From: Pseudomonas sp. MN1F
GTDB lineage: Bacteria > Pseudomonadota > Gammaproteobacteria > Pseudomonadales > Pseudomonadaceae
DNA length: 64,000 nt
NCBI RefSeq assembly: GCF_009391885.1
Contig: NZ_VZII01000010.1
Coordinates: 1-64,000, forward strand
Reading direction: 5' to 3'
Made by a program: the position numbers and the translations under genes. The notes beneath the pieces were generated by a model. That model had not been told where the DNA came from. It ran no database searches and was given only the letters and a program-made list of their open reading frames with translations. Numbering within the stretch: position 1 is the stretch's first letter; every line of letters begins with the position of its first letter. Below, piece after piece: positions 3,527 to 57,248 of the stretch.

Positions 3527-4666
3527 ATGATCAGGCAGTTGACCACTCTCTCGCTCGCCGCACTCGTTGCGGGTTGTGCGATTCAGAAGGCTGAGCAGCC
3601 GCCGAAGCCGGCGTTCGATAGCAGCCGTAATCCCGAATGGCTGTCTCCGGACATCTACCCGAACGGTGCAAGTCCGGAGAAGGAACCGGTCGTTCGGTAT
3701 GGCCGCTACACCTTGGTGAGCACCCAACCCGATGCGAGCCAGCGCGACCTGATGGCACAGATCATCGACGTGACCATCCCTTCCAGCATGAACCCAAGCG
3801 TTCGGGATGCCATGCTCTACGTGGTCGACCGGTCAGGGTACGCCCTCTGCCCGCCCAGCTCGCAGCACGTCAACATCCTGTACACCCGACCTCTGCCGGC
3901 AGCCCAGTACAAACTTGGCCCGATGACGCTTCGCAATACCCTACAGGTCCTCGCCGGCCCAGCCTGGCAGGTGAAGATCGATGAAGTGAACCGTCAGGTG
4001 TGCTTCGTGCTTCGCCCCGGTTACCAATTGCCAGCCCCGTCGACGCCGGCAGGCCAACTCTACGCCGACAAAGCACGGGCTCCTGGAACCAGCGCCGCCA
4101 CACCAGCCTCGACGCCAGGCGTGGTCGTTGCCGCAGTGCCTACTCCCGCCCCTATCTCCACGACTACACCCGCTGTCGCAGCCCCAGCGCCAGTGGCTCT
4201 CGCGCTCCCCCCAGTGGCACCCGCCAAGGATGGCTCTATCCCGGCTGCGATGGTAACCACCGCTGCTAAACCTTCGACACCTGCGTCCCCAGCACCGAAT
4301 GCGCCCAACCAACTTGCAGCATCCAAGCCAGCGGCTGCCGTGACCACTACAGCAGTGGTGGCCCCGGCCATCGAGGTCAAGCCCGCCACACCACCCCGGC
4401 CGCTGCCCCAAGTATGGACGGCCGAAGTTGGATCAACCCTGCGCGATACCGTTGAGGAATGGGCCAAAAAAGCCCGGTGGCGCGTGATCTGGGCCCAGGA
4501 AGACCTCAACTATCCGATCGAGGCACCGCTGCACTTCGAAGGCCCGTTCCAGGAAGCCATCAAGCAGCTGTTCCCGCTCTACGACAATGCCCCGCGATCC
4601 TTCGTCGTCGACGGTAGCGAAGGCTCCCAGAGCGTCTTGTACGTCGCTGAGAGGAAGAAGAAATGA
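3527..4666 (+). CDS. pilL: PilL, lipoprotein of the type IVB thin pilus
   Basis: First gene of the conjugative type IVB pilus operon. A lipoprotein signal peptide ends in LVAGC (Cys17). An N-terminal PilL domain covers about residues 25-170, followed by a long Ala/Pro/Thr linker (about 175-295). A C-terminal TcpQ-like domain (WTAEVGSTLRDTVEEWAKKARW... onward) in related systems binds the secretin and aids its assembly. The start follows AGGGGG. The stop overlaps pilN by 4 bases (ATGA), indicating translational coupling. Confidence 0.88.
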   Translation: MIRQLTTLSLAALVAGCAIQKAEQPPKPAFDSSRNPEWLSPDIYPNGASPEKEPVVRYGRYTLVSTQPDASQRDLMAQIIDVTIPSSMNPSVRDAMLYVVDRSGYALCPPSSQHVNILYTRPLPAAQYKLGPMTLRNTLQVLAGPAWQVKIDEVNRQVCFVLRPGYQLPAPSTPAGQLYADKARAPGTSAATPASTPGVVVAAVPTPAPISTTTPAVAAPAPVALALPPVAPAKDGSIPAAMVTTAAKPSTPASPAPNAPNQLAASKPAAAVTTTAVVAPAIEVKPATPPRPLPQVWTAEVGSTLRDTVEEWAKKARWRVIWAQEDLNYPIEAPLHFEGPFQEAIKQLFPLYDNAPRSFVVDGSEGSQSVLYVAERKKK

Positions 4667-6378
4667 ACAAGTTTCCTTGGGTCCGCTGGGCATTGACCCC
4701 GATCGCCTTCGCCCTGCTGTGCAGCTGTGCCGTGCAACGGGTTAATGAGTCGTTCGACCGAGCAGAGTTCCAGGGCCGCACGGCTGGCCAGTACACCAAG
4801 TTCCTGCAGAACCAGCAGCCACAACAAAACCGCGACACGGTCGTTTTCAGCAGCAAGCCCTGGGTTTCCACTGAGCCCCTGGTGACCAGGCGCGGGCTCC
4901 CGTTCAGCCTGGACCGTGACATTGCCTATCGGCCTGCAGGCCCAGTGTCGATCACCGACGTGGCTCAGCTGATCACCAAGGAAACTGGGCTGCAGGTCAT
5001 TGTAGCGCCTGACGCATTGAACCCCGGGATCCTCTCCGCGAAGTCTGCCGGCACTACCGCTCGCGGCGCCGCTCAGGCTGTACCTGATCCAGACAGCCTA
5101 GCGGGTCTTCTGCCAAATGGCATGGCGGGGGCAATGCCTGGCAGCGCAAGCTCATTCGACTTGGGCCTCAGCAACGGAGGACTGATCTCCGGGCTGAACT
5201 ACAACGGCAAAACCTCCGGGCTGCTTAACCAGGCCACCTCACGCCTGGGGCTGTCGTGGCACTTCGACTCTGAGCTGCAGGGCGTGCGCATTACCTACTT
5301 CGACACCCGCACCTTCGACGTGTGGACATTCGGTGACGAGTTGGAGATCGAGAGTACCGTCAAGTCGGGCCTGCTGACCTCCACCGGCAACGGCGACTCG
5401 GGCTCTTCGAATTCTTCGGGGGGAGCCACGGGTGAATCCGGCAGCAACCAGAGCACCAAGTCGACCTACAAAACCTCACTGATGAGCGACATCGAGAGCA
5501 ACGTCAAGGCCATGCTCAGCATGCAGCCTCCAGGGCGGCTGTATCTCTCTCGCTCTACCGGCACGCTCACCGTCAGCGACCGGCCGGAGGTGCTGAATCG
5601 AATCTCGTCCTACCTGAAAGATACCAACCGCAGCATCACTCGACAGGTGCTGTTCAACGTCAAGGTCTACGAGGTTAACTTCAGCGACAGCGACCAGACG
5701 GCGGTCAACTGGAGCGCTGTCTACAAGTCCATCTCCGGGAAATGGGGTTTCGGCCTGAGCAACACCGTCGCCGGCATCAGTTCCGAGGCGATCTCTGCCA
5801 GCGGCAGCATTCTCGATACGTCCAGCTCTCCGTGGGCAGGCTCCAAGGCCGTCGTGCAAGCCCTGTCAGAACAGGGGCGCGTCTCCGAAGTGCGGTCGCC
5901 ATCGGTGACCACGCTGAACCTGCAGCCGGCACCGATCCAGATCGGCAACGTCCAAAGCTATGTCGCCTCCAGCTCGACCACCACCACCGCTTCCGTTGGT
6001 TCCAGCACCGCACTGACACCGGCGACGATCACCAGTGGCTTCAACATGATGCTGCTGCCCAAGCTCCTGGACAAAGAAAACATGCTGCTGATGATCACCC
6101 TCAGCATCAGCAGCAAGCCAATCTTCAAGGACTTCGAGAGCAACGACTCCAAGGTCCAGACCACGGACTACGACACCAAGAACGTAGCGCCAAAGGTCCG
6201 TCTGCGCAGCGGTGAGACATTGATTCTGACTGGGTTCGATGAGAACGGGGATGACGCCCGTAAATCCGGCGTTGGCAGTCCTAGCTTCTTTGGCTTGGGC
6301 GGTGGGCGAACCCGATCGACGTCCCACAGCGCCCTGGTGGTACTGGTGACACCAATCGTCCTCCCGGACAACCTGTAA
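4663..6378 (+). CDS. pilN: PilN, type IVB pilus outer-membrane secretin
   Basis: Forms the outer-membrane pore through which the thin pilus passes. A lipobox (LLCSC) lies at about residue 20, N-domains are at 80-150, a Ser/Gly-rich insert (SGSSNSSGGATGESGS) is near 245, and the C-terminal secretin domain runs from about 300 to 571 (VRSPSVTTLNLQPAPIQIG, LRSGETLILTG). Length is typical of R64/PAPI-1 PilN. Overlaps pilL by 4 bases; pilO follows directly. Confidence 0.9.
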   Translation: MNKFPWVRWALTPIAFALLCSCAVQRVNESFDRAEFQGRTAGQYTKFLQNQQPQQNRDTVVFSSKPWVSTEPLVTRRGLPFSLDRDIAYRPAGPVSITDVAQLITKETGLQVIVAPDALNPGILSAKSAGTTARGAAQAVPDPDSLAGLLPNGMAGAMPGSASSFDLGLSNGGLISGLNYNGKTSGLLNQATSRLGLSWHFDSELQGVRITYFDTRTFDVWTFGDELEIESTVKSGLLTSTGNGDSGSSNSSGGATGESGSNQSTKSTYKTSLMSDIESNVKAMLSMQPPGRLYLSRSTGTLTVSDRPEVLNRISSYLKDTNRSITRQVLFNVKVYEVNFSDSDQTAVNWSAVYKSISGKWGFGLSNTVAGISSEAISASGSILDTSSSPWAGSKAVVQALSEQGRVSEVRSPSVTTLNLQPAPIQIGNVQSYVASSSTTTTASVGSSTALTPATITSGFNMMLLPKLLDKENMLLMITLSISSKPIFKDFESNDSKVQTTDYDTKNVAPKVRLRSGETLILTGFDENGDDARKSGVGSPSFFGLGGGRTRSTSHSALVVLVTPIVLPDNL

Positions 6379-6390
6379 GTGGCGGCGCTC

Positions 6391-7716
6391 ATGAACACCG
6401 ATACACACAAACCTTCGAGCCGGGTGCAGACCATCCAGCACCGAGGGCGTGTCTTCGTCACTGGCATGCTCTGGACGCCCCTGGGCAACATGACCAGCTA
6501 CATGAAGGAAGCCCGTCAGTATGGCCATGAGCACGGCCTGGACATCGTGGCTATCCGAAGAACGTCGCTCATGATCCAGGCGGGCTTTGTTTCCCGCTCC
6601 GCTGACGTTCACAAAGGCATGTACTCGCTGGCTGCGACCTTGGCTGGCCAGCTCGGTGATTCATGGATTGCTGCCTGGGCCGTCGACGCCGATCAAGATC
6701 GCTATGCCATCGTCGCTGTCCATGAGGGCAGGATCATCCCGGGTTGCGACCTGATTGCCACGGCATCGGAAGTCCGTAAACGGGTGTTGCAGCAACGCAG
6801 TCGCGGCATCCAGTTTGAGCGAGAGTTCTTACCAACCGAGTTTGGCATGGGCGGCGACCTCATCGATATTGATGAGCTGCTCCAGCCGTCCCGGCTCAAG
6901 CGTGAATACCGGCTGCGTCCACTCGTGTTCGGTATGTCCAAGCCTGAGCTGGCTCAGTTGCTCCTGGTGGCCCTCTTGATCGGTGGAGGGCTACTGGCCT
7001 GGTCACAATGGAAATCCCATCAGGCAGAGATCGCGCGTCAAGCTGCCATCGAGGCGGAGAAGAAACGCCTCGAGGAGCTGGCCGAGCTGCAGAGGCAAAC
7101 AGGCACGGAACAACCCATCCAGGCGCTGGAGCACCCCTGGGCGAAACAGCCCTCGGTCACCGATTTCGTTGAGGCCTGCAGCAGGTTCATGAACCGGTTG
7201 CCGCTGAGTATCCGCGGCTGGCCCTTCATGGAGGCAAAGTGCAACAGTTCACAGGTTATTGCGACCTACGAACGCGCAGGTAACAGCACCGCTCACGAGT
7301 TCACGATGGCTGTCGCAGAACTCTTCTCTATCCGCCCGGAGTTCATCAATCAGGGGAAGACCGGGCTGCTGAAATTCGACATTTCCCTTGATGCTGCCGG
7401 TGACGACGCCCTCATTGAGGCCAGAGATGCTCTGGAGAATTTGACCAGTTGGTTCCACGGTTTCTCCCAGGAACCGCAGTTGCAACCGATCCCCGTTGTT
7501 ACGCCTCAGGAACCTGCTCTGCCAGGTCAACCCACGCCACCTCCGCCGCCGCCTCCCCAGTGGCAGCAGTACCAGCTGTCGTACACCTCTGGCGTGCTGC
7601 CCTACGACTCCTTCAATGGCGCTCCAACCCAAGGGCTGCGCCTGCAGGAGATCAAGACCGAATACAAGGCCGACCACCTTATCTGGTCAGTCACAGGAGT
7701 CCTGTATGCGAAATAA
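6391..7716 (+). CDS. pilO: PilO, type 4b pilus inner-membrane protein (PilO2)
   Basis: Matches PilO2 proteins of conjugative type IVB pili. The N-terminal half is cytoplasmic, a single membrane segment falls at about residues 188-207 (LAQLLLVALLIGGGLLAW), followed by a short coiled coil (IEAEKKRLEELAELQ) and a periplasmic domain ending in a Pro-rich tract. In related systems it links the assembly ATPase to the secretin. Start could be GTG 6379, immediately after the pilN stop, or ATG 6391; I take ATG. The frame overlaps pilP by 11 bases. Confidence 0.82.
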   Translation: MNTDTHKPSSRVQTIQHRGRVFVTGMLWTPLGNMTSYMKEARQYGHEHGLDIVAIRRTSLMIQAGFVSRSADVHKGMYSLAATLAGQLGDSWIAAWAVDADQDRYAIVAVHEGRIIPGCDLIATASEVRKRVLQQRSRGIQFEREFLPTEFGMGGDLIDIDELLQPSRLKREYRLRPLVFGMSKPELAQLLLVALLIGGGLLAWSQWKSHQAEIARQAAIEAEKKRLEELAELQRQTGTEQPIQALEHPWAKQPSVTDFVEACSRFMNRLPLSIRGWPFMEAKCNSSQVIATYERAGNSTAHEFTMAVAELFSIRPEFINQGKTGLLKFDISLDAAGDDALIEARDALENLTSWFHGFSQEPQLQPIPVVTPQEPALPGQPTPPPPPPPQWQQYQLSYTSGVLPYDSFNGAPTQGLRLQEIKTEYKADHLIWSVTGVLYAK

Positions 7717-8221
7717 CTTCAACCTGATCCTGCTCACGCTCTGGATGCCAATTGCCGGAGCACAGACAGCGACAGATCTCTCAGCCATCAGCGTCGGCGA
7801 GCTCGGCAAGGTGCAGAGCGAAACCATCTTGTTCAAGGCAAAAGCCGAACGCGCGAAGGCAGAGCTCGAGGCAAACGGCACACTACCTAGCCCCCCCCAG
7901 CCAGTGACGCAGTTTCCTACTGTCGGGCTCACTCCCGCCATGACGGCTACATCCCCAGGGCCGCGCCAATCGGCATTGCCGGTGGTGAAAGAAATCAGCG
8001 GCTCCGGACAGAAACTGCGGGCAAGCCTGATCTACAGCGACGGCAGCGAGCTTGACGCCAAGCCTGGCAGCGAGCTGCCGAACGGTTTCCGGGTCCAACA
8101 AATCACGCTCGATGGGGTCGTGCTGAGCAAGGAGGGAAAGCGATACCCACTTGGATTCGGTAACCGGGTGGTGTCTCAGCCACAACAGAGCCTCCCCGGC
8201 CTCCTGCCCGGCCAACCCTGA
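7706..8221 (+). CDS. pilP: PilP, type IVB pilus periplasmic protein
   Basis: A 171-residue secreted protein with signal peptide MRNNFNLILLTLWMPIAGA, a helical stretch (ETILFKAKAERAKAELEANG), and a small beta domain with the PilP/GspC-like pattern (LIYSDGSELDAKPGSELP...QITLDGVVL). AGGAG at 7695-7699 sets the ATG at 7706. It probably bridges the inner-membrane PilO complex and the PilN secretin. Confidence 0.85.
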   Translation: MRNNFNLILLTLWMPIAGAQTATDLSAISVGELGKVQSETILFKAKAERAKAELEANGTLPSPPQPVTQFPTVGLTPAMTATSPGPRQSALPVVKEISGSGQKLRASLIYSDGSELDAKPGSELPNGFRVQQITLDGVVLSKEGKRYPLGFGNRVVSQPQQSLPGLLPGQP

Positions 8222-8233
8222 GGAGTATTGACC

Positions 8234-9772
8234 ATGACCGAGCTATCCGCAGAGCCCGTCGATCTTGAGCCTGCCGAACTGACTTTGGCGCCGTTGCCAG
8301 TAGCGGTGCTGACCGCCCCAGGCGGCCCTCATGCGATTAAGGACGACTTGCGCCAGGTCCTGGCCATGACCGCCGATGGGAAGCTGTACATATCACCCCA
8401 ACACGTCAGTGATCCCTATGTGATGGCATTCATGGATCAGCTTGAGCACAAAGGCATTGACTACGAAGTGGTCTCAGCCTCGATGACTGAGATCAAGACG
8501 CTGTACCAAGCCTCGGCGTCGAGGGGCATGAAGGCACTTGTCGAAACCCAGCGCCAAGCCCAGGTGGTGGAGTTCATGGGGGATGCCCACCGGCGCGGCG
8601 CAAGTGATGTTCACATCGTCGTTTCGCACGATGTCACCCGGATCAAGTATCGGCTGTATGGGGTCCTTCAGGAGGTGCGCCAGGAAAAGAGCGACGTAGG
8701 GCGTGAATTCTGCGCTGCTCTGTACAACAGCATGTGCGATGTTTCTGGCGATTACTACCAGCCCCACATCGCTCAGGATGCCCGCGTCAGCCGTAAGTTC
8801 GTCGACCAACTGGGCCTGTACGGCGCTCGGGTTGCAACTCGGCCGTTGGTGGATGGCCCGCTGATGGTGATGCGTCTGCTGTACGACGATACCTCCAAGC
8901 AGAGCTTCGAGGAGCTCGGGTTCCTGACTCAGCAGATCGAGCACTTCAGAAGACTGCGGAGCCTGCCTTATGGACTGAACCTGATTACTGGCCCAACAGG
9001 ATCCGGCAAATCCAAGACCCTGCAGGTCAACCTCAACGCCCTGTATGACGAGACTGGTGGCTCCAGGCACATCCTCACGCTCGAGCATCCTCCTGAGTAT
9101 CCGCTCAAGGCTAACCAGTCACCGATCTACGCCGGCGAGACTTGGGGTGACGGTATTACCAATGCCGTACGGCTTGACCCAGATGTCCTCATGTACGGTG
9201 AATTGCGCGACCTGGCGTCAGCCCAGGCGGCGTACACCGGCGCCATGACTGGTCACCAGAGCTGGTCGACTCTGCACACGAACAACGTGATCGCCACCAT
9301 CCAGCGCCTGATTGACATGGGCGTGGCTGATTACCTGGTCACTGATCCGCTGCTGACCACTGGGATCGCTAACCAGTCATTAGTGCCGGTGCTCTGCCCT
9401 GCCTGCCGGATCCCGCTGCGTGACCATACCCACGGCATCAGCAAGGACCTCTTCGCCCGGCTGAAGCAACTGCAGATCGTCGACCAAGTCAATCTGGTCG
9501 GTGAAGGTTGCAGCAAGTGCAGGAACCTTGGGGTCGTCGATCGAACCGTTATCGCCGAAACCTTGCTGACCAACGTCAAGCTCATGGATACGTTCACCAA
9601 GCGCGGCGCAAGCGCTGCGCGCAGATACTGGGTCAACGAGATGGGCGGCATCACCAAGATCGCCCACGGGATCATGAAAGTCACCAGCGGGGAAGTAGAC
9701 CCACGCGATGCCGAGCTCTTCGCTGGACCGCTCGACTTCGACAGGCAGCTGATGGAGCAATCCGATGTTTGA
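8234..9772 (+). CDS. pilQ: PilQ, type IVB pilus assembly ATPase (GspE family)
   Basis: Cytoplasmic hexameric ATPase that powers pilin polymerisation. Walker A (GPTGSGKS) lies at about residue 253, the Asp-box/Walker B region is VLMYGELRD, and the His box is STLHTN. Two Cys pairs (CPAC and CSKC) form the zinc site common in GspE proteins. AGGAG at 8221-8225 picks ATG 8234 over the upstream TTG 8228. It overlaps pilR by 8 bases, as expected for an ATPase and its membrane partner. Confidence 0.92.
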   Translation: MTELSAEPVDLEPAELTLAPLPVAVLTAPGGPHAIKDDLRQVLAMTADGKLYISPQHVSDPYVMAFMDQLEHKGIDYEVVSASMTEIKTLYQASASRGMKALVETQRQAQVVEFMGDAHRRGASDVHIVVSHDVTRIKYRLYGVLQEVRQEKSDVGREFCAALYNSMCDVSGDYYQPHIAQDARVSRKFVDQLGLYGARVATRPLVDGPLMVMRLLYDDTSKQSFEELGFLTQQIEHFRRLRSLPYGLNLITGPTGSGKSKTLQVNLNALYDETGGSRHILTLEHPPEYPLKANQSPIYAGETWGDGITNAVRLDPDVLMYGELRDLASAQAAYTGAMTGHQSWSTLHTNNVIATIQRLIDMGVADYLVTDPLLTTGIANQSLVPVLCPACRIPLRDHTHGISKDLFARLKQLQIVDQVNLVGEGCSKCRNLGVVDRTVIAETLLTNVKLMDTFTKRGASAARRYWVNEMGGITKIAHGIMKVTSGEVDPRDAELFAGPLDFDRQLMEQSDV

Positions 9773-10931
9773 ATTGCTTCAGGACTTCTGGACAGGTGTA
9801 CGGGAGGCCGCCCAGGGCTGGGCGGTCACCTTCTATGCAAAGCAGTTTGGGAAGAACGAGCGAATCCAGTTTTACGAGAGCCTGATGGGCGTTCTGGAGG
9901 ACGGTATCCCGATCGAAGAAGCACTGGAGACCGTTGCCAAGGCGTTCAGCAATGACGGAAAAACGATGCATCCAGTGTCAGTCATTTGTGGCCAGGTGGC
10001 GATGCTCGTGCGGGGAGGAAAATCTCTCGCCGACGCCTGCAGGAGCCACTTGCCATATGACGAGGCTTCCCTGGTCGATACCGGGGAAAAAACCGGCAAC
10101 CTGGTGGAGGCTTTCCGGGACTGCGTCCGGCTCATCGAGGCCCGTCAACGCATTTCTCGCCTGGTGGTCTCCGTCGTAGCGCTTCCATCGATTACATGGA
10201 GCCTCATGGGGGCGCTGCTGTATGTCATCGCCACCTGGATGGTACCGTCGATGGCTCAACGGCAAGATCCAGAGCTGTGGACCGGCATCCCAAGTCTGCT
10301 TTATGTAATTTCCAAGGTGGTCACGAACTACGGACTTCTGATCGTTGGAGTCGTGCTGACTCTGGTCGTCGTCTCGTTCGTGACACTTCCATATTTCTGC
10401 GGCCTGCAGGTTCGACCGAACAGCCCGGTTTGGAAAACGCAGCTTAGCTTGCTACTGCAGACCACCAGGATGCGACTCGAAGGCATTCCCCCCTGGTCAA
10501 TTTACAAAGTCCTGCACGGCTCAATCTTCCTGCTGAACATGTCAGTGATGCTCCGCGCCGGGGTGGGCCAGCTTAGTGCGCTCACCATTCTCAGCCGGAG
10601 CGCCTCTCCATGGCTGCGAGAAAGGATCGACGCAATCAACTACGGCGTCAGCTCAGGTAAAGACTTCGGTACAGCTCTCAAATTAGCCGGGCACCAGTTC
10701 CCGGATCCGATGGCCATTCACTTTCTGCAGGTCTTGGCCACACGCCAAAGTTTCGCCGCATCGATGGAGAGGTTCGCCAATCGCTGGCTCGAGCAAATGC
10801 TCAAGCGCGTGGAAACGGTCTCGAAGTCTCTTACAGCCCTATCCGCAGTAATCATGGGCCTGCTCATGATCTTCGTGATGGTCGGCATCTTCCAGCTGGC
10901 CATAGGCCTGATGGACTCAATCCAACACTAA
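9765..10931 (+). CDS. pilR: PilR, type IVB pilus inner-membrane platform protein
   Basis: GspF/PilC-family protein. It has two cytoplasmic helical bundles with the family motif (FYESLMGVLEDGIPIEEALE, then MSVMLRAGVGQLSALTIL) and three hydrophobic segments near residues 135-160, 190-210 and 355-385. It is the membrane platform acted on by the PilQ ATPase. The length of 388 residues is normal for the family. A 22-base gap follows before pilS. Confidence 0.9.
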   Translation: MFELLQDFWTGVREAAQGWAVTFYAKQFGKNERIQFYESLMGVLEDGIPIEEALETVAKAFSNDGKTMHPVSVICGQVAMLVRGGKSLADACRSHLPYDEASLVDTGEKTGNLVEAFRDCVRLIEARQRISRLVVSVVALPSITWSLMGALLYVIATWMVPSMAQRQDPELWTGIPSLLYVISKVVTNYGLLIVGVVLTLVVVSFVTLPYFCGLQVRPNSPVWKTQLSLLLQTTRMRLEGIPPWSIYKVLHGSIFLLNMSVMLRAGVGQLSALTILSRSASPWLRERIDAINYGVSSGKDFGTALKLAGHQFPDPMAIHFLQVLATRQSFAASMERFANRWLEQMLKRVETVSKSLTALSAVIMGLLMIFVMVGIFQLAIGLMDSIQH

Positions 10932-10953
10932 GCACACAGCCCAGAGGCAACCA

Positions 10954-11469
10954 ATGACACTCTCTACCCCAAAAAACCAACGTGGCTTCCTGTCCATCGA
11001 CGGCGTGATGTGGATCATGCTCATTACCATCGCCTTAGGTTTCATCGCCTGGATCGGCTACAAGATGCTGGGGAGCTCCGATGCCGCTGTAGAGCAAAGC
11101 AACATCACCACCATCATCACCAACGCCAAAAAGCTGAAGGGATCTTCTGGATATGGCACATCGGGGACTAATCTCGTGCCTTCGCTGATCGCTATCGACG
11201 GAACCGGCTCAATGGGCGTTTCGGGCACCACCCTGACCAACCAGTGGAACGGCGCCGTCACGCTTGTGAGCAATGGCATGACCTTTACCCTCTCCGAGAG
11301 CAACGTCCCCAAAGCGGCTTGCATCACGCTGACCACCAAGATCGCCAAGGACAAGCAGACCACCACCGCCATCAATGGTGGCTCGGCAACCAGTGGCGAG
11401 GTCCTTCCCGCCGCCGCTACAACAAGCTGCTCCAACGAAATGAACTCGATCTCCTGGACTACCTACTGA
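10954..11469 (+). CDS. pilS: PilS, major pilin of the type IVB thin pilus
   Basis: Prepilin of 171 residues. The leader is short and charged (MTLSTPKNQRG), and predicted cleavage is between Gly11 and Phe12, giving a mature FLSIDGVMWIMLITIALGF N-terminus: a hydrophobic polymerisation helix. A Ser/Thr/Gly-rich globular domain follows, with two Cys near the C-terminus (AACIT and TTSCS) that could form the usual D-loop disulfide. Position +5 is Asp rather than the canonical Glu. The pilS tail overlaps the open frame of pilT, but pilT probably starts after the pilS stop. Confidence 0.9.
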   Translation: MTLSTPKNQRGFLSIDGVMWIMLITIALGFIAWIGYKMLGSSDAAVEQSNITTIITNAKKLKGSSGYGTSGTNLVPSLIAIDGTGSMGVSGTTLTNQWNGAVTLVSNGMTFTLSESNVPKAACITLTTKIAKDKQTTTAINGGSATSGEVLPAAATTSCSNEMNSISWTTY

Positions 11470-11480
11470 AGGCTGCCAGC

Positions 11481-12425
11481 GTGAGCTTGATTGCAGATGC
11501 TGAGTTCGTGGACCTCTATCTTGGCCATGATTTTGCCGATGTGAAGGGGCTGGCAGGTCAGCCCCGCAAGGCCGCCGCTCCTACGGAGTGGTCGACCGAG
11601 ATCCAGGAACTGAGGGCGCGGTGTCTGCATCAGTACGAGACAACACGTGAGCCTGAGTTCGCCCTCGTGTTGGAGGATCGCGTGCTCTTGCGAGTGACGT
11701 ACAACCTGGACGTCTTCACTAAGCCGTTTTTTGTGTTGAATCGGTCAAGAGCAACCATCATCCCCCTCGAAGATCTCGGGTTACCGGACCATATTTACGA
11801 GTGCCTGCTCGCCGAGGACACCCGGGGTCTGGTGTACTTCGCTGGTGAGATGGGCACCGGCAAGACCAGTAGTGCAGCCTCGGCGGTCAAGGCACGCCTG
11901 ACAACACGCGGAGGCCTGGGCCTGACTGTAGAAGACCCGCCTGAAACGCTCCTCCAAGGCGAACATGGCTCTGGTCGCTGCATCCAATTGCCGGTTTCCC
12001 GTATGCAAGGCGGCTATTCAGAAACGCTGATACGAGCTCTTCGAACTCGCGCAGACCTCATCCTGGTCGGTGAAGTTCGAGACACGGCCACGGCCGCTGA
12101 AGTCATCAAGGCATCCATCAATGGCCATCTCATTTTCTCCACTGGGCACGGCGGCAGCATCGGAAGCTCCATCCAACGCCTGGCTGTACTTGCCGAGCCC
12201 ATCATGCCGAATGCCCTGGAGGTGCTCTCACAGGGGCTGACGGTGGTCATTCACCAAACCCTCCTCCGTCCAGATCACGGACAGCCGCGACTCACACTCC
12301 AAACGCTGTCACTGGCCCTGGATGACGCGCCGTCCATCCGCGAGAAGATTCGTAGCGGACATCTTCAGATGATCGAGCAAGACATCGTCACCCAATCGAA
12401 CAGGAGTCTCTGGCATGGCCAGTAA
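11481..12425 (+). CDS. pilT: PilT-like ATPase of the type IVB pilus
   Basis: Second secretion ATPase of the operon, in the GspE/PilT superfamily. Walker A (GEMGTGKTSS) is at about residue 121, the Walker B region is ADLILVGEVRD, and the His box is FSTGHGG. By position and size (314 residues) it corresponds to PilT of PAPI-1-like operons, where it drives pilus retraction and so brings mating cells together. The frame is open from 11244 but overlaps pilS; GTG 11481 with AAGG at 11469-11472 is the likely start. Overlaps pilV by 11 bases. Confidence 0.83.
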   Translation: MSLIADAEFVDLYLGHDFADVKGLAGQPRKAAAPTEWSTEIQELRARCLHQYETTREPEFALVLEDRVLLRVTYNLDVFTKPFFVLNRSRATIIPLEDLGLPDHIYECLLAEDTRGLVYFAGEMGTGKTSSAASAVKARLTTRGGLGLTVEDPPETLLQGEHGSGRCIQLPVSRMQGGYSETLIRALRTRADLILVGEVRDTATAAEVIKASINGHLIFSTGHGGSIGSSIQRLAVLAEPIMPNALEVLSQGLTVVIHQTLLRPDHGQPRLTLQTLSLALDDAPSIREKIRSGHLQMIEQDIVTQSNRSLWHGQ

Positions 12426-13593
12426 ACGCGGGCAGGCTGGATTTTTTACCATTGATGGCCTGTTCGGCCTGATAGTGATGAGCATCATGCTGTCTCTCGC
12501 AGGTTGGTGGATGCTCAATTACGGCAACCAGCAGGACTACCGGATCGCCGCGGAACACCAGCGGACTGTCGCTGACGCTTTTGCCAAGTACCTCAAGGAC
12601 AACTACTCCGTGGTGCTCAGCAATGCTGGCCCGACTACGCCTGTCCAGGTCACCGTAGACATGATGCAAAACACCAAGTATCTGCCGGCTGGCTTCAGCT
12701 CGACCAATAGCTTCGGCCAGACCATCGTCGGCCTGGCCAGGCGGCTGAACGCGAACCAGCTCGAGGCCATTGTGGTGACCACCGGTGGCCAGGTCATCCC
12801 GGAACTCGGCATTCGGAGCATCGCTGAGCATCTTGGCGGGCCAGGCGGCTTCATATCGTCACTCAAGCCCGGAGTCATCCAGGGCGTGCGTGGGGGATGG
12901 GAAGTGGCCCTCAGCAACTACGGCATTAATCCTGGGCAGGGACATACTGCGAGCGCGCTCTTCTTGATCGACGGCGACCTGGCCAACGACTACCTCTACC
13001 GCAACGCTGTACCAGGCCATCCTGAGTACAACCGGATGAACACCGCGATCGATATGGGTGGCAACGACATCAACAATGCCGGCGCGGTCACCGCGACGAG
13101 CGACATCACCAGTAAGAACGGCTGGTTCAGAAGCCAGAACAACACCGGCTGGGTGAACGAGAGGTGGGGCGGAGGTATCTACCAGTCCGATGCTGACTGG
13201 GTCAGGGTCCTCAACGACAAGGGCCTGCTAACCGGCGGAAAAATCCGCGGCGGCACACTGCAGGCAGACGGGCGTGTGACAGTTGGGGAATACTTGGACA
13301 TTGAGAGCACGGCTGTTGAAGGGCAAGCTTGCCCGAAGATTGGCATTCAGTCGAAAACCACTCTCGGTGCACCGCTCACTTGCCAGTGCCAAACGCCATC
13401 CTGTCAATCCAGTGCGTGGAAATCAGCTGGGGCTGCCGACTTCCTAGTCGTCAACTGCGTTATGAACAACTGGCTTAGTTGTGTACCGGTATGCCCCAGC
13501 GGTTATACTCTTAAATCATCATCTGGGGTATATGGCCAAAACAGCAGTTATTTTGCCGACCGATACTATGGCGTCGGTGTCTGCACGCGGTGA
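12415..13593 (+). CDS. pilV: PilV, tip adhesin/minor pilin of the type IVB pilus
   Basis: A type IV prepilin leader (MASKRGQAG) is followed by the hydrophobic helix FFTIDGLFGLIVMSIMLSLAG, then a PilV shaft domain (residues about 45-290). The Cys-rich C-terminal region from about 305 has at least seven Cys (CPKIG, CQCQTPSC, CVMNN, CVPVCP). In IncI plasmids this C-terminus recognises recipient lipopolysaccharide and is switched by a shufflon. Here I see no shufflon repeats or recombinase next to it, so the adhesin appears fixed. Overlaps pilT by 11 bases. Confidence 0.85.
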   Translation: MASKRGQAGFFTIDGLFGLIVMSIMLSLAGWWMLNYGNQQDYRIAAEHQRTVADAFAKYLKDNYSVVLSNAGPTTPVQVTVDMMQNTKYLPAGFSSTNSFGQTIVGLARRLNANQLEAIVVTTGGQVIPELGIRSIAEHLGGPGGFISSLKPGVIQGVRGGWEVALSNYGINPGQGHTASALFLIDGDLANDYLYRNAVPGHPEYNRMNTAIDMGGNDINNAGAVTATSDITSKNGWFRSQNNTGWVNERWGGGIYQSDADWVRVLNDKGLLTGGKIRGGTLQADGRVTVGEYLDIESTAVEGQACPKIGIQSKTTLGAPLTCQCQTPSCQSSAWKSAGAADFLVVNCVMNNWLSCVPVCPSGYTLKSSSGVYGQNSSYFADRYYGVGVCTR

Positions 13594-15545: not shown

Positions 15546-15603
15546 TTGACACATCCCTTCCCCGCTCCGATTATTAAGCCGTGATCTGCTGACGTCGTCA
15601 GCA
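15546..15603 (+). promoter_or_regulatory. promoter plus palindromic operator, copy 1
   Basis: TTGACA at 15546-15551, a 17-base spacer and GATTAT at 15569-15574 form a plausible sigma-70 promoter. Just downstream, at the expected transcript start, lies the 17-bp palindrome TGCTGACG-T-CGTCAGCA (15587-15603). The core CTGACG-T-CGTCAG recurs in the same position after the next TTGACA promoter at 16601, which marks it as a likely repressor or activator site. The binding protein is unknown. Confidence 0.6.
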
Positions 15604-15668
15604 ACATGCCCCATGCAGCTCGGATCCGTAATGCTGCAGCACGAAGTTTGTGTGATCCACCAACCCAA

Positions 15669-15753
15669 GGTCGTTTAGCTTCTGGCAGCACGACCGATCG
15701 ACCTCCGTCGATAGAAGCTCCTTCCGCAAACCCAGCGGGGAATACACTTCCCC
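15669..15753 (+). ncRNA. structured 5' leader RNA, pseudoknot plus stem-loop, copy A
   Basis: Helix P1 pairs GGTCGT (15669-15674) with ACGACC (15690-15695). P2 pairs AGCTTC (15677-15682) with GAAGCT (15714-15719), crossing P1 to give a pseudoknot. P3 is a hairpin ATCGAC/GTCGAT (15697-15702, 15707-15712) lodged between the two 3' strands. A nested stem-loop follows: GGGGAA/TTCCCC (15737-15742, 15748-15753) inside ACCC/GGGT. The same fold with different bases occurs at 16724 and 18301. It ends about 50 bases before the ATG at 15802. Confidence 0.75.
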
Positions 15754-16600: not shown

Positions 16601-16657
16601 TTGACAAGCTTCTTCACCATTTCCATGCTTGTCACCGTGAGCTGCTGACGTCGTCAG
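16601..16657 (+). promoter_or_regulatory. promoter plus palindromic operator, copy 2
   Basis: TTGACA at 16601-16606, a 17-base spacer, then a weak CATGCT at 16624-16629. The palindrome CTGACG-T-CGTCAG at 16645-16657 repeats copy 1 in sequence, and both palindromes lie in the shared context CCGTGA(T/G)CTGCTGACG. The weak -10 suggests that an activator could be needed. Confidence 0.6.
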
Positions 16658-16723
16658 TAACCCCAGCCCGAGCAGTCATGATCTGAAAGACTGCTGCACC
16701 CACTGCGGTGTTGATCTCCCCAA

Positions 16724-16827
16724 AATCGCCAAGCTTCCGGAAGCGCGATTGATCAATCTCCCGATTGATGGAAGCCTACCCAACTTGCTACATCCCAACC
16801 CACGCGGGGAATACTTTCCCCCATGGG
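16724..16827 (+). ncRNA. structured 5' leader RNA, pseudoknot plus stem-loop, copy B
   Basis: P1 pairs AATCGC (16724-16729) with GCGATT (16745-16750). P2 pairs GCTTCC (16733-16738) with GGAAGC (16770-16775). P3 pairs ATCAAT (16752-16757) with ATTGAT (16764-16769). The downstream element is GGGGAA/TTCCCC (16806-16811, 16816-16821) within CCCA/TGGG. It precedes a DUF3577 gene, so it may be an instance of the computationally described DUF3577 RNA motif; I am not certain of that match. Confidence 0.75.
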
Positions 16828-18161: not shown

Positions 18162-18240
18162 ACATTGAATGCAATGCCCGGGCACATGCGGGGCTTCTGC
18201 CTGCTGGCCGTCCAACGAATTCCGTATTGGTTCACTGTCG

Positions 18241-18276
18241 TTGACAGTGCCTCCCGGAGCCAGGGTTTAAGGCTCC
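18241..18276 (+). promoter_or_regulatory. possible promoter before leader copy C
   Basis: TTGACA at 18241-18246 and a poor GTTTAA at 18265-18270 (18-base spacing). An inverted repeat GGAGCC/GGCTCC (18256-18261, 18271-18276) brackets the -10. Unlike promoters 1 and 2 it lacks the CTGACG-T-CGTCAG palindrome. Confidence 0.4.
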
Positions 18277-18300
18277 AGCGCGTTGCGCCAACCCACCCAA

Positions 18301-18386
18301 GATCGCCTAGCACTCGGCAGCGCGATCGCATCACTCAGTGATGGAGTGCCTTCAACTTTACCTACCTGCGGGGATCTCATCCTCGC
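18301..18386 (+). ncRNA. structured 5' leader RNA, pseudoknot plus stem-loop, copy C
   Basis: P1 pairs GATCGC (18301-18306) with GCGATC (18322-18327). P2 pairs GCACTC (18310-18315) with GAGTGC (18344-18349). P3 pairs CATCAC (18329-18334) with GTGATG (18338-18343). The downstream stem-loop is GCGGGGAT/ATCCTCGC (18368-18375, 18379-18386). All three pseudoknot helices keep their pairing relative to copies A and B although many bases differ. It ends 33 bases before the ATG at 18420. Confidence 0.75.
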
Positions 18387-35900: not shown

Positions 35901-36206
35901 ATGAGCAAGAAATTCGAACACCGCGCTGAGTATGTCGCTATCCCATTCAAAAACGCGACTAGCGGCGCTTGGATATTCAAGAGCACAGAACAGACGCTTG
36001 AGCCCGATGTTGCGTCTCTTTTGGCAGAAGAGGAGCAACTGCAGAAGAAGATGCTCGAGCTCGGAGCCGAAGGCTGGGAACTTGTCAGCACACAGCCAGT
36101 GTGCCGAGGCGAAATCAAGGTGGGCAATCAAAATGCCCAGGCCTGGTCCTACGGTTTCCCTATGCCGATCGGATATCTGCTCTTTTTCAAGCGCGAAGTC
36201 AGTTGA
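35901..36206 (+). CDS. small DUF4177-like protein
   Basis: A 101-residue soluble protein. The element KMLELGAEGWELVSTQPVCRG followed by YLLFFKRE is the pattern of DUF4177 and similar small proteins. Function unknown. Its stop codon lies inside the traD-like remnant boundary, so a rearrangement joint is close to its 3' end. Confidence 0.65.
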   Translation: MSKKFEHRAEYVAIPFKNATSGAWIFKSTEQTLEPDVASLLAEEEQLQKKMLELGAEGWELVSTQPVCRGEIKVGNQNAQAWSYGFPMPIGYLLFFKREVS

Positions 36207-36262
36207 ACAACCTCTTCACGCTGCGCGTCCGGGAAACTGGGACCGCCGATCTACTCACTAGC
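36203..36262 (+). pseudogene. fragment of a second traD gene
   Basis: The plus-strand frame from 36203 reads LNNLFTLRVRETGTADLLTS. TraD of this ICE has FNNLFMLRVRETATAELLTN at 33186-33245. By hand alignment 46 of 60 bases and 15 of 20 residues match. Flanking sequence does not continue the match, so this is a short remnant from a different traD lineage, left by recombination or insertion next to the Abi_2 gene. Confidence 0.75.
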
Positions 36263-36266
36263 CCCT

Positions 36267-37253
36267 TTAGATCCCAAAGGCCGCACGTGGGAATCCGGTT
36301 TCAGTTGGAAGCCCAAGCGAGCCGAACGTGCATCCTGGTAACCCTGGTTTGCTGTCAAGCAGATCCGCAACCTTTCTGATCCAATCTGAGCTAGGCGCGA
36401 GCTTCTTGAGTAGGTACCAAACAACGGATACGAGGCCGTAGAGCCTACTCAGCGCATTGACGTCTAAGTTTAGGGCGGCGAAGTATGGGTCCGACGACAA
36501 CGCGGACAATGGGTTGGGAGTAACCTGGTTCCAGATCCGTGTGTGATGCGCACAACGATTGCGTAGTAGGTTGATCTCTTGCAACCATCGAGCGAAAACC
36601 CTGGCATCAGTCACGCCAAACCTTGAAAGGATCTGGTTCTGATACGTTCCCTTAAGGATCTCGAAATAACGAGAAAGCGCGCCAAAATCCCACGCCTCCA
36701 CAGCAACCCAGAACGGAATGGGTCTGCCGGAGCGACGGTGCCATTGGATAGAGTCCTCAGTACTCCTGTCCAAGAGCTGCTGCTGTTTCGCCGCCCACTC
36801 GTTCCATTTGTTTCGAGGCTTGCCATGAGAGATGAAATTCTTGGCGTACTTAGGATGGATATAGCTGACGTCCTTATACGCCATCGGGTCGTGATAACCA
36901 ACAACGTGAGCGATGACAGTCTTCAGGTTTACCTCCAGCCGCTCGATCGCATCTAGCATGAGTAGACGAAGGTGCTTGTCAAATCTGTAAAGGCTAACCA
37001 CATCATCGAAGGATGCTCCCGCTGCAAAGACGTCTTGACGAAGCGGCTTGTTGCTGATCGGGCAGATCTTTGCCTGGTTGGTAACCGGGTCAACATCGAA
37101 CTCGCGTGCTGGGTACCAGTAGCCGCTTAGGCGGTAGTAACCCAACTGAGCCAGCTTGCGCTCTGCTCGTACAGGATCTGCAACGTGCATATTGCGCTGT
37201 TGGATGAGAGCGACGAGGTCTGGATAGGTTCGGAAAGGTTTCGGAGCCAGCAA
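36267..37253 (-). CDS. Abi_2 (AbiD/AbiF) family abortive-infection protein
   Basis: A 328-residue HEPN-type protein. The Abi_2 pattern is clear: KLAQLGYYRLSGYWYPAR near the N-terminus, then SFDDVVSLYRFDKHLRLLMLDAIERLEVNLK and the HEPN catalytic R-x4-H in NLLRNRCAHHTRIWN (about residue 240). Such proteins act as RNases that arrest phage-infected cells. Start appears to be TTG 37253 with GGGAA upstream; an ATG at 37260 is out of frame. It is antisense to the tra cluster and interrupts it, and lies beside a traD remnant. Confidence 0.85.
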   Translation of the reverse strand: MLAPKPFRTYPDLVALIQQRNMHVADPVRAERKLAQLGYYRLSGYWYPAREFDVDPVTNQAKICPISNKPLRQDVFAAGASFDDVVSLYRFDKHLRLLMLDAIERLEVNLKTVIAHVVGYHDPMAYKDVSYIHPKYAKNFISHGKPRNKWNEWAAKQQQLLDRSTEDSIQWHRRSGRPIPFWVAVEAWDFGALSRYFEILKGTYQNQILSRFGVTDARVFARWLQEINLLRNRCAHHTRIWNQVTPNPLSALSSDPYFAALNLDVNALSRLYGLVSVVWYLLKKLAPSSDWIRKVADLLDSKPGLPGCTFGSLGLPTETGFPRAAFGI

Positions 37254-37336
37254 AATCCATTTCCCAGAAATAAGAAGGCCCGAACGTAATGCCGGACTAA
37301 GCCAGCACCAGAGGATCGGGCGCGATTGAGATCATC

Positions 37337-37516
37337 ATGCCCATCGTATCATTCGTCGTCAACCAAAATCGGTTGACGAAAAGTCACGTCGAAATCGACG
37401 CGGTAGCGGTGAACCCAAAGGTAGTCGCATTCGTGGCCGAATTTGCAATGGTTTTCGAAATCAAACCCCATCCAGGTGCAGCTGATGCCAGCGGCCAAGG
37501 CCGCTACCTGCCTTAA
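37337..37516 (+). CDS. possible 59-residue protein between abi and the T4SS genes
   Basis: An open frame with plausible protein composition (MPIVSFVVNQNRLTKSHVEI, then VVAFVAEFAMVFEIK), divergent from the Abi_2 gene. It has no good ribosome site. It overlaps the end of the minus-strand frame 37513-37713 by four bases. Two hairpins lie inside it (37356-37379 and 37387-37400), so this stretch might instead encode an RNA. Confidence 0.4.
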   Translation: MPIVSFVVNQNRLTKSHVEIDAVAVNPKVVAFVAEFAMVFEIKPHPGAADASGQGRYLP

Positions 37517-37713
37517 CCGTGAATACGGAGCAGCGACACATTGGCTCGCTTGATCATATCGAACAACTCCGCTGAGCTCACCAGCCCATCAGCATGCAGT
37601 TGCTCCGCTGCCTGGATTGCGTTGTCGTAGCACCCCTCATCCCGAAAATTGGCGCCCAGGTAATCCGCTATCCACTTACGGAATGTCATTGATTGTGGTT
37701 TTCGATGCGGCAT
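37513..37713 (-). CDS. small hypothetical protein upstream of the Abi_2 gene
   Basis: A 66-residue soluble protein (MPHRKPQSMTFRKWIADYLGAN, then DNAIQAAEQLHADGLVSSAELFDMIKRANVSLL), likely helical, unknown function. Transcribed in the same direction as the Abi_2 gene and 260 bases upstream of it. GGAG lies before the start. An antitoxin or regulator role is conceivable but unsupported. Confidence 0.55.
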   Translation of the reverse strand: MPHRKPQSMTFRKWIADYLGANFRDEGCYDNAIQAAEQLHADGLVSSAELFDMIKRANVSLLRIHG

Positions 37714-37848
37714 TCTGATCTCCTCAAACGCGCAAGGCTTTTCTTACCGCAAAAAATTCTACGACACTGAGATAAGTATTTCTTGAGGCACGCCAGCCCC
37801 TGATCTCGGCATCCTGACAACCACAGTCAGTCTTGCTAGAGCCCAGCC

Positions 37849-38205
37849 GTGTACAAGCCATCCCTCCACTTTGCATCTACTCGCCGAATCCTGATTGGCG
37901 CGCTGATCAGCGTCAGCGGCGGGTTTTCACTCATGCCCAGCGCCCTGGCGGCTAGCGCATCCGAACAGGCGAACATCGAGGTGATGATCCGCCAATTGAA
38001 CGCGCTGGAGGACTCGGCGCGACGCAGCGCCACGATCGCCAGCGAACCTGGCCAGCGCTACAACTTCGACTATGAACGTCTGGCTGGCGACATCCAGCGC
38101 GTTCGCCAGGGCCTGCAAGAGTACCTGACCCCGAGTCGCGCACAGCCGCGGGATCCGGCAGAGCTGGCGGGCAAATACACCCTCACCGGCGGGCGGATGC
38201 CATGA
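37849..38205 (+). CDS. RAQPRD-family ICE protein (TIGR01690, PFL_4700)
   Basis: A 118-residue secreted protein. It carries the eponymous RAQPRD motif (PSRAQPRDPAELAGKYTL) near the C-terminus. The signal peptide ends ALAAS. Marks the resumption of the transfer cluster after the Abi_2 interruption. Overlaps the next gene by 4 bases. Confidence 0.88.
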   Translation: MYKPSLHFASTRRILIGALISVSGGFSLMPSALAASASEQANIEVMIRQLNALEDSARRSATIASEPGQRYNFDYERLAGDIQRVRQGLQEYLTPSRAQPRDPAELAGKYTLTGGRMP

Positions 38206-53591: not shown

Positions 53592-53700
53592 TGATGGCTA
53601 TTTGCCAAGAAATCCAAAGTGGCAGACATTCGCTTTACCGTTGATGCCATCTTGGCATTAAGAGAAAAGCCCGCTCCATGCACACCCCATGGAGCAACCT

Positions 53701-55584
53701 ATGCAACTCCTCTCCTGGTTGAGCCGCAAACCGGCTAAACCAACACCAGAAGCCTCACCACAGGGCTTCCATCTGCCGGCGAAGGCTACTGCTCTCCTGC
53801 AGAGCCCACTCCGTCAGCAGCTCCTGGAGAACATCTGGCGCCGGGCTTCGCTCTCGCGAGCTCAGTTCAATACCCTCTACCTTAAACCGCTCGAGCGCTA
53901 CGCCGAGCTGGTGCAGCTGCTCCCTGCCTCTGAAAATCATCATCATGCCCACCTTGGCGGACTCCTGGACCACGGCCTGGAGATCATGGCCTATGCCCTA
54001 AAGATCCGGCAGACGCACCTTCTGCCAATAGGCGCTCCACCGGAGTCCCAATCTGCTCAAGCAGAAGCCTGGACTGCAGCGGCTGCCTACGGCGCGTTGC
54101 TACACGACTTGGGGAAGATCGCTGTTGACCTCCGCGTCGAGCTCGAAGATGGCCGCGCATGGCACCCATGGCACGGACCGATCAACCGCCCCTACCGGTT
54201 CAAGTATGTGAAAGGTAGGGAGTACCAACTGCACGGGGCTGCTTCAGCCCTTGTGTACATGCAAGTCTTGGACACCGGAATCCTGGACTGGCTCAGTGGC
54301 TTCCCTGAGCTATGGAAGCAACTGATCTACCTCCTCGCCGGCCAGTACGAGCACGCCGGCATCCTCGGCGAAATGGTGATCCAGGCGGATAAAGCTTCCG
54401 TTGCCCAGCAACTGGGAGGAAATCCTGAACGCGCGCTTGCGGCCCCAAAGCAATCGCTGCAGCGACAACTGGCCGACGGTCTGCGATTCCTGGTGCGAGA
54501 AAAACTCAAGCTCAATCAGCCAGATGGACCGGCAGATGGCTGGCTGACTCAAGATGCGCTTTGGCTGGTGAGTAAACCAGCAGCAGACCAGCTCCGGGCA
54601 TACTTGCTGACCCAGGGTATTGAGGGAGTACCAACCTCCAATGCTCCGTTCTTCAACATGCTGCAGGACCAGGCAATCATCCAGACCAATGCACAGGATA
54701 AAGCAATCTGGAAAGCCACCATCGATAACGGCCGCGGTTGGAAGAACAGCTTCACCTTCTTAAAGGTCTCGCCGGCCCTCGTATGGCCGAATCCGGACGA
54801 ACGCCCCCCTCAATACGGTGGCAGCCTAACCCTGGAGCAGGAACCGGAGACAGTCGCGCAGGCGGGTACGAGTGCGGAAACCGTCTGTGCGGTACCGGAT
54901 GAGCCAGTGGGCCCCACGGGCGACGCAACTCTACCGCCGGCACGACCTCGAGCATTAGTCCAGCCAACTCCAACCGAAGGGATCCGATCATCTGAGCGCG
55001 AAGAACTACTGTCACTGTATAGTAATATCACTGCGCCATCAGAAGAGCTAAGTGCTAGCCCAGGCTCAGCAGCCGTCTCCCCTCCCCAGCAAGGACTCGA
55101 AGAGGTAGATCCGGCTGACGATTCTCTAGCAGCCACAGCAAGGAATGCTGCAATAAAAGATGTCACCCCTATGCCTACGAGTAGTTCGCTGGGAGGAGCT
55201 TTCATCGCCTGGCTTAAAGCCGGGATCGCCTCCCACAAATTGATCATCAACGATACCAAAGCCCTGATTCACACCGTCGACGACACAGCAATGCTCGTTA
55301 CCCCTGGGATCTTCAAGCGGTTTGTGCTTGAGCACCCGGAGCTTGAGAGGATCGTCGGTAAACCAGGGACATCGGCCTGGCAGCATGTCCAGCGCGCATT
55401 TGAGAAAGAGAAGAGCCACCAGAAAACCAGCAAGCAGCTGAACATCTGGACCTACGATGTAGTAGGCCCGCGCAAGACCACGCAGCTGAGGGGCTACCTG
55501 CTTCTTGATCCGAAGCTGATATTCGCTGAGCAACCCTTGAACAATCCAAGCTTGCGACGAGTGACGGAAGGGGTCGCTGAATGA
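53701..55584 (+). CDS. traI: TraI, MobH-family relaxase
   Basis: Relaxase that nicks oriT. The N-terminal TraI_2 domain has the HD-type metal site of MobH enzymes: HHHAHLGGLLDHGLE at about residue 80 and LLHDLGK at about 135. The TraI_2_C winged-helix-like domain occupies about 490-595. The Pro/Thr/Ser-rich linker between them is variable. GGAG six bases before ATG 53701 selects it over ATG 53689. Overlaps the integrase by 4 bases. Confidence 0.92.
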   Translation: MQLLSWLSRKPAKPTPEASPQGFHLPAKATALLQSPLRQQLLENIWRRASLSRAQFNTLYLKPLERYAELVQLLPASENHHHAHLGGLLDHGLEIMAYALKIRQTHLLPIGAPPESQSAQAEAWTAAAAYGALLHDLGKIAVDLRVELEDGRAWHPWHGPINRPYRFKYVKGREYQLHGAASALVYMQVLDTGILDWLSGFPELWKQLIYLLAGQYEHAGILGEMVIQADKASVAQQLGGNPERALAAPKQSLQRQLADGLRFLVREKLKLNQPDGPADGWLTQDALWLVSKPAADQLRAYLLTQGIEGVPTSNAPFFNMLQDQAIIQTNAQDKAIWKATIDNGRGWKNSFTFLKVSPALVWPNPDERPPQYGGSLTLEQEPETVAQAGTSAETVCAVPDEPVGPTGDATLPPARPRALVQPTPTEGIRSSEREELLSLYSNITAPSEELSASPGSAAVSPPQQGLEEVDPADDSLAATARNAAIKDVTPMPTSSSLGGAFIAWLKAGIASHKLIINDTKALIHTVDDTAMLVTPGIFKRFVLEHPELERIVGKPGTSAWQHVQRAFEKEKSHQKTSKQLNIWTYDVVGPRKTTQLRGYLLLDPKLIFAEQPLNNPSLRRVTEGVAE

Positions 55585-57172: not shown

Positions 57173-57248
57173 TGGTGGGTCGTGTAGGATTCGAACCTAC
57201 GACCAATTGGTTAAAAGCCAACTGCTCTACCAACTGAGCTAACGACCC
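57173..57248 (-). tRNA. tRNA-Lys (anticodon UUU), probable ICE attachment site
   Basis: A complete 76-base cloverleaf read on the minus strand: acceptor GGGTCGT pairs with ACGACCC, D-arm GCTC/GAGC, anticodon loop CTTTTAA with UUU at 57213-57215, T-loop GGTTCGAATCC, encoded CCA at 57173-57175. Its 3' end faces the ICE. The tRNA-Lys 3' end is the known target of PFGI-1/PAPI-1-type elements, so the attR core should lie within about 57173-57220. No second copy of this segment is in the window. Confidence 0.96.

Follow-up and report, generated by a model that had tools for sequence, protein, structure and literature searches.

The Abi_2 gene of Pseudomonas sp. MN1F raises the question of which neighboring element may act as an antidote to its product. 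The window analyzed here is a stretch of 64,000 nucleotides (contig NZ_VZII01000010.1). A preliminary description of it had recognized the HEPN Abi_2 protein, had noted that toxins of this family are linked to partner antitoxins, RNA among them, and had put forward two hairpins and two small reading frames as candidate antitoxins. The letters of both hairpins were verified in the window, and both frames are present in the region of the upstream gap. The gene, its motif and these candidates are as follows.

36267..37253, minus strand: abi gene, encoding an AbiF/AbiD-type Abi_2 HEPN protein of 328 amino acids, with a TTG start
36546..36563, minus strand: HEPN RNase motif R231-N-R-C-A-H236, which fits R-[NHD]-x3-H
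37356-37364 and 37371-37379, strandless: hairpin 1, a DNA dyad and possible operator, whose right arm is the -35 box
37387-37392 and 37395-37400, strandless: hairpin 2, at chance level; any role in terminating transcription of the 66-aa gene would be weak
37513..37713, minus strand: gene for a 66-aa protein, a neighbor of abi but not a conserved partner
37337..37516, plus strand: 59-codon frame, probably no gene

The abi product belongs to Pfam family PF07751 (E 3.6e-49; 168 bits against a curated cut-off of 25.6) and is assigned to AbiD by PADLOC (E 1.1e-48). A phmmer search matches it to PbAbiF (PDB 8vz6) with an E of 5.2e-32. The AlphaFold2 model of the protein has a mean pLDDT of 93.7, and Foldseek with this predicted model returned 8vz6_A (E 1.2e-15; TM 0.72/0.79) as the sole PDB match with E <= 0.001. 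The R-x4-H site that the preliminary description had attributed to the protein is indeed kept: R231, N232, H236 and H237 are invariant across 32 aligned Abi_2 proteins, that of the window included. This AbiF/AbiD-type HEPN protein is likely to be an RNA-cutting toxin that stops growth.

The most conserved part of the gap upstream of abi is a segment that the preliminary description had missed, situated between hairpin 1 and the abi start. The first clue to it was a plasmid match (74.6%) that extends past the abi start into the gap.

37264..37328, minus strand: structured RNA element of 65 nt, a proposed RNA antitoxin (AbiFr-like)
37316-37321 with 37278-37283, minus strand: outer stem of the RNA element, its 5' arm followed by CCUCUG
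37302-37310 with 37287-37295, minus strand: inner stem of the RNA element

Homologues were collected from 68 of 298 Pseudomonas genomes, and 47 candidate stretches in genome contigs yielded 35 loci. The genomes G209 and G102 have upstream DNA identical to that of the Pseudomonas loci L033 and L035. The upstream alignment comprises 53 loci with a protein identity of ~40% or more, some of which are the same genome in two collections. Removal of 6 identical upstreams leaves 47 distinct ones, and removal of 11 further identical RNAs leaves 36 distinct RNAs. Twelve loci (L020-L031) were left out because their upstream DNA contains no such element. In all 53 aligned homologues an element of 56-79 nt lies immediately upstream of abi, and the taxa that carry it include Pseudomonas, Vibrio, Thauera and Desulfobacteraceae, among others. 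In the two-stem structure 97.4% of the cells are paired, with two-sided (compensatory) changes at 10 of 16 pairs. The covariation is 0.440, compared with 0.219 in shuffles, and none of 500 shuffles was as high on any of five measures; slid controls were 30-48% paired. RNAalifold gives the same structure, and with 26 sequences, in an alignment fitted to the structure, covariation holds at 13 of 16 pairs.

Sequence conservation is concentrated in the same segment. Ten relatives have an RNA that is 91-100% identical to that of the window, compared with 43-82% in adjacent DNA, and in the nine of them that were compared the abi coding sequence is 64-87% identical. The unpaired CCUCU bulge and UUCU tail are invariant or nearly so. 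The folding z-score of the window RNA alone is just -2.3, and termination before abi is uncertain because the RNA tail, CUUCUUAUUU, is a poor U-tract. A covariance model, R1, that was built with the window's RNA included scores 85.8 bits at 37264-37328. The locus holds one element and no tandem repeat of it; the next best R1 match in the window has 15.6 bits and is 20 kb away. Of 17 plasmid and phage loci, 11 have an element upstream that R1 detects at E <= 0.0011, with protein identities down to ~30%.

A single promoter-like site precedes the RNA.

37334..37362, minus strand: sigma-70-type promoter TTGACG-17-CATGAT, with a predicted start at ~37327-37328

It is the only such site within 37150-37860, where 0.4 are expected. 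Of the 47 distinct upstreams, 44 have TTGAC at a distance of 33-37 nt from the RNA, the exceptions being L051, L065 and L013. For loci with distinct RNAs, the spacing is 34, 35 or 36 nt in 34 of 36. The combined -35 and -10 score was matched by 5% of shuffles or fewer at 29 of these 36 loci and by more at 7; taken one locus at a time, the promoter scores are modest.

How far the RNA and the gene occur together was determined in the 298 Pseudomonas genomes. At 50 bits or more, R1 matched 28 places in 27 genomes. At 13 of these places the neighboring abi is intact, and at 15 it is broken, truncated or missing. The uninterrupted genes are those of G000, G209, G102, G109, G263, G100, G285, G238, G010, G172, G268, G023 and G067; the others are in G164, G140, G177, G045, G134, G136, G079, G276, G251 (two), G005, G168, G123, G182 and G236. 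The 50-bit cut was our own choice, and it leaves out 27 weak hits among 55 R1 rows, all at or below 40.1 bits. Of these weak hits, 22 are terminator-like and 37-41 nt long; by eye, G098 (40.1 bits, locus L019), G170, G009 and the partial copy in G002 seem genuine. The RNA is present at 13 of 13 uninterrupted abi genes with at least 54% identity, and none without it was seen in the 298 genomes. RNA without intact abi but no intact abi without RNA fits an antitoxin that may outlive its toxin and not the reverse. The broken abi genes beside intact RNAs may be due in part to draft-assembly errors or to recent decay. Loci with a window-type RNA element next to a missing or sharply truncated abi are L078-L085.

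The relation of this RNA to Rfam family RF03085 (the abiF motif) was examined by searches in both directions. RF03085 gave no match at E <= 10 at the locus (36100-37900), and Rfam as a whole, applied to the window with gathering cut-offs and more permissively near the locus, left only three chance-level matches to unrelated families there. At E <= 10 it matched none of 17 homologous loci (ten with the window-type RNA and seven of a clade with a convergent RNA, described below), and at E <= 1 none of 17 plasmid and phage loci. As a positive control, the same model found another Abi_2 clade in 20 of the 298 Pseudomonas genomes, with 2 over the cut-off, and 16 of the 20 matches are just upstream of an Abi_2 match. 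RF03085 membership was thus tested and failed, and the locus is filed as a divergent variant of AbiF-AbiFr.

Conversely, R1 found nothing at the expected place in loci of the RF03085 type or of a clade with ~37% protein identity. Phylum-wide it matched 3 of 349 genomes, the window's own included, and one of these matches (G458) is a terminator-like hairpin without abi. In a phylum sample of 29 loci a second model, R2, gave 7 matches at E <= 1; Rfam, applied to 20 of the 29, gave RF03085 at E <= 1 in 9, with one over the cut-off. A third model, R3, was built with L138, L127 and L132 added from this sample. L126, L137, L144 and L148 were not included because their R2 match is not directly upstream of the placed abi start. 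At L137 (1067-1124), an abiF-type RNA and, after it, the apparent start of a second abi precede the full-length Abi_2 gene.

By eye, RF03085 RNAs of the same genus share with the window RNA the position upstream of an Abi_2 gene, the outer stem, a CCUCUG-like bulge, the inner hairpin and a U-rich tail. Their consensus is different, however, and neither model reliably finds members of the other. The formal links are weak, consisting of R2 on L127 (18.3 bits) and of R3 on L129, L131 and L069; the R3 hits on the RF03085 type are partly built in, because R3 contains the RF03085-type row L127. No description of the window-type RNA or of the convergent arrangement appeared in the literature listings that were searched, which is a weak negative. 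According to PMC12804078, the Cell paper of Zilberzwige-Tal (2025) supplies AbiF covariance models, and these may already cover the window RNA.

The ~37%-identity clade, whose proteins have an N terminus like Y-x-K/R-P-W-x-S, showed no upstream RNA with the models used here. It has a conserved RNA gene elsewhere, on the opposite strand and pointing into the 3' end of abi.

L020:2508-2570, minus strand: convergent RNA gene at the 3' end of abi (example)

This RNA was present in 15 of the 15 loci examined (L020, L021, L022, L024-L031, L113, L114, L116 and L121) and in L126; L141 and L142 gave no match to the short pattern used for it. Its promoters match 9-12 of 12 consensus letters, and its tail is U-rich and terminator-like. 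In 14 of the 16 loci, with L029 and L031 omitted as nearly identical to L026 and with L028 and L126 poorly aligned, two-sided changes occur at 9 of 17 pairs (1 of 500 shuffles as high) and 91.8% of the cells are paired (0 of 500 as high). Rfam left the RNA unmatched in seven loci of its clade. BLAST placed it at 24 positions in 23 of 296 Pseudomonas genomes, 13 of them convergently beside an Abi_2 match and 11 not, five of the 11 being weak (<60 bits). At L116 the abi gene is flanked by hsdS and hsdR.

In a tree built from 53 proteins, RNA class for the most part tracks protein clade. A branch sets the R1-strong rows apart from all others, and the same holds for the 'none' and the RF03085 rows; the R1-weak rows are split (4 changes). 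The tree was made by a quick method, for which the program warned of long branches, and the convergent-RNA clade entered it under 'none'. That label proved wrong, since the RNA of this clade lies at the other end of abi. There would then be at least two arrangements: a co-transcribed leader RNA, as in the window, and a stand-alone RNA gene, convergent at the 3' end of abi, that has a terminator and a near-consensus promoter to itself. That Abi_2 toxins generally pair with structured RNA antitoxins in at least these two arrangements, incompletely covered by Rfam, with remnants that may give immunity against incoming AbiF elements, is a tentative generalization that we regard as rather doubtful.

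The candidates of the preliminary description can now be set against this RNA. Hairpin 1 is unusual in the gap, because a perfect 9-bp hairpin with a loop of 3-10 arises in just 3 of 1000 dinucleotide shuffles; the 64-kb window as a whole yields 10 such entries, spread over 8 sites of which hairpin 1 is one. Since its right arm is the -35 box, it lies upstream of the predicted transcription start and hence of the predicted RNA, and it does not qualify as an antitoxin. A dyad over the -35 box could instead be the operator of a repressor, with promoter control of abi besides or in place of an RNA antitoxin. It recurs at 9/9 positions in L005 and at 8/9 in L032, L033 and L049. However, conservation around homologues, which had been suggested as a check, is restricted to these and the window's own locus (L002): at least 8 of 9 positions are kept in only 5 of the 44 distinct upstreams that have the RNA element and the -35 core, window included, and fewer in the other 39. 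No linked regulator gene was identified either. Hairpin 1 is a possible operator in a subset of loci, and we consider such control an unlikely explanation of the locus. Hairpin 2 is no more than chance, because similar 6-bp inverted repeats occur in 39% of gap shuffles; it is one of 2 terminator-like sites found against 0.7 expected. The 66-residue protein is encoded on the same strand as abi, 259 nt upstream, which speaks for a type II antitoxin. Yet among 97 loci (with flanks of 1.5-3 kb for most) its product and the 59-aa product matched only their own copies, and no conserved adjacent protein partner of the type II toxin-antitoxin kind was found. Of 149 genomes, 18 encode relatives of the 66-aa protein, that of the window among them; away from the window's locus, no such gene adjoins an Abi_2 match from the genus-wide search. 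The protein has no Pfam, PADLOC or NCBIfam match, and its role as an antitoxin is improbable in the extreme. On the strength of shuffles, locus comparison and promoter geometry, the hairpins, the 59-codon frame and the 66-aa protein were rejected as the antitoxin. The preliminary description holds in kind, in that a HEPN Abi_2 protein probably has its RNA partner in the gap; none of its named candidates is the likely antitoxin, and the small structured RNA before abi is the most likely antidote.

That RNA could act merely as a cis-acting leader, attenuator- or riboswitch-like, which restrains the transcription or translation of abi without any binding to AbiF. Just 10 nt separate it from the start codon of abi, the search for promoter-like sites gave no second one, and its tail, when folded, could form base pairs in the ribosome-binding region (weakly, z -1.0). 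For RCd22, the RNA upstream of Clostridioides difficile abiF, control in cis has been reported too (PMC12373285). A leader would not be expected to persist where abi is broken, truncated or missing, as it does at 15 of the 28 places, or to keep several unpaired letters (the CCUCU bulge and the UUCU tail) invariant or nearly so. Moreover, the RNA of similar layout in the other clade is convergent at the far end of abi, where a leader role is impossible. The leader-only explanation is decidedly unlikely on this evidence. The frequent breakage of related copies might also suggest ordinary decayed cargo without activity, but in the window the abi frame is intact and the catalytic residues, the RNA and the promoter are all present, so that decay is very improbable.

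We therefore favor, with a probability of roughly 0.8, a divergent AbiF/AbiFr-like module, that is, a type III-like toxin with an RNA antitoxin, carried as cargo of an MPF_G-type element. Protein family, predicted fold, catalytic motif, conservation and covariation of the RNA, promoter geometry and the co-occurrence of RNA and intact abi were all computed here. The best reading of the mechanism, an RNA-neutralized HEPN RNase, is guided by analogy with the published C. difficile system. We infer that transcription would begin at the one promoter (37362-37334, minus strand) and yield the 65-nt structured RNA, which starts 6 nt beyond the -10 box. The majority of transcripts would end at or just past the outer stem and the C/U-rich tail, and the abi mRNA would arise by occasional read-through of the antitoxin RNA, with the weak TTG start as a further restraint. 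The RNA would bind an AbiF dimer and block the HEPN RNase site. Once the supply of RNA drops, for example when a phage takes over the cell or the element is lost, unbound AbiF would cleave RNA and arrest growth; the module may serve phage defense or maintenance of the element.

PbAbiF-AbiFr (PDB 8vz6) has the same fold, as judged from the predicted model, the same R-N-x3-H site and a structured noncoding RNA partner (PMC12737573 and PMC12373285, each consulted in part). The comparison, made at the level of the proteins, gives 27% identity. The accessible part of PMC12373285 describes RCd22 as an RNA antitoxin co-transcribed with its toxin and active in cis and trans, and AbiF as toxic with an RNxCAH motif. 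This AbiF-RCd22 pair of phi027 thus likewise has an Abi_2 toxin, an RNA immediately upstream, one promoter and RNxCAH. In contrast, RCd22 there includes two RF03085 abiF motifs plus a terminator and is found on a prophage, whereas the window has a single element with no RF03085 match and a weak U-tract, on a conjugative-type element. ToxIN (type III) is likewise a protein toxin with an adjacent RNA antitoxin, as described in the part of PMC12804078 that was available. Unlike ToxIN, the window locus contains no tandem-repeat RNA. The toxin of ToxIN is ToxN, and that of the window is a HEPN protein instead. AbiD/F-type HEPN proteins have also been proposed as relatives or ancestors of CRISPR-Cas13, according to the accessible parts of PMC12165695 and PMC12737573. 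With a divergent, sequence-defined RNA family, a predicted promoter and many natural alleles that have the RNA alone or a broken toxin, one can test directly how RNA and toxin recognize each other, whether there is cross-protection and how control by RNA evolved, and the convergent arrangement of the other clade would tell an antitoxin role from that of a leader.

The genes around abi are arranged in the order DUF4400, UvrD, a 101-aa gene, [abi], RAQPRD, DUF3262, DUF2976 and DUF3487. Two of them flank the cargo.

35901..36206, plus strand: left flank, an element backbone gene of 101 aa with no family over the cut-off
37849..38205, plus strand: right flank, the RAQPRD conjugation gene (Pfam PF09686, E 5e-27)

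The left-flank and RAQPRD genes are adjacent in pUM505, p2014S05-249-1 and a P. veronii plasmid. In pUM505 and p2014S05-249-1 (both MOBH, MPF_G), the counterpart of the 101-aa gene and RAQPRD are just 93 nt apart; the simplest view is therefore that the 1.6 kb containing abi and the 66-aa gene was inserted as cargo. From these plasmid relatives and the TraI_2 relaxase gene, the window appears to be part of an MPF_G-type conjugative element. PADLOC also matched the UvrD gene to GajB, which is not taken to indicate Gabija because this gene is element backbone. In pHPA0875-2 (L105:2122-3543), other genes occupy the place between UvrD and the small backbone gene of a related element, and the region may therefore be an insertion hotspot. 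In NZ_CP049141.1 (L112:783-1766) the listed Abi start, at 855, is 24 codons inside the homologue-supported frame, which begins with TTG at 783; a listed start this far in hides the nearness of the RNA to abi.

A tRNA-Lys gene (57173-57248), perhaps the attachment site of the element, lies close to the TraI_2 relaxase gene (53689-55584). Type IVb-like pilus genes extend over 3527-13593 of the window, the last of them a shufflon pilin gene (PF04917). Three radC RNA motifs (RF01754) occur within 3 kb on the same strand, at 15570-15718, 16626-16775 and 18219-18349.
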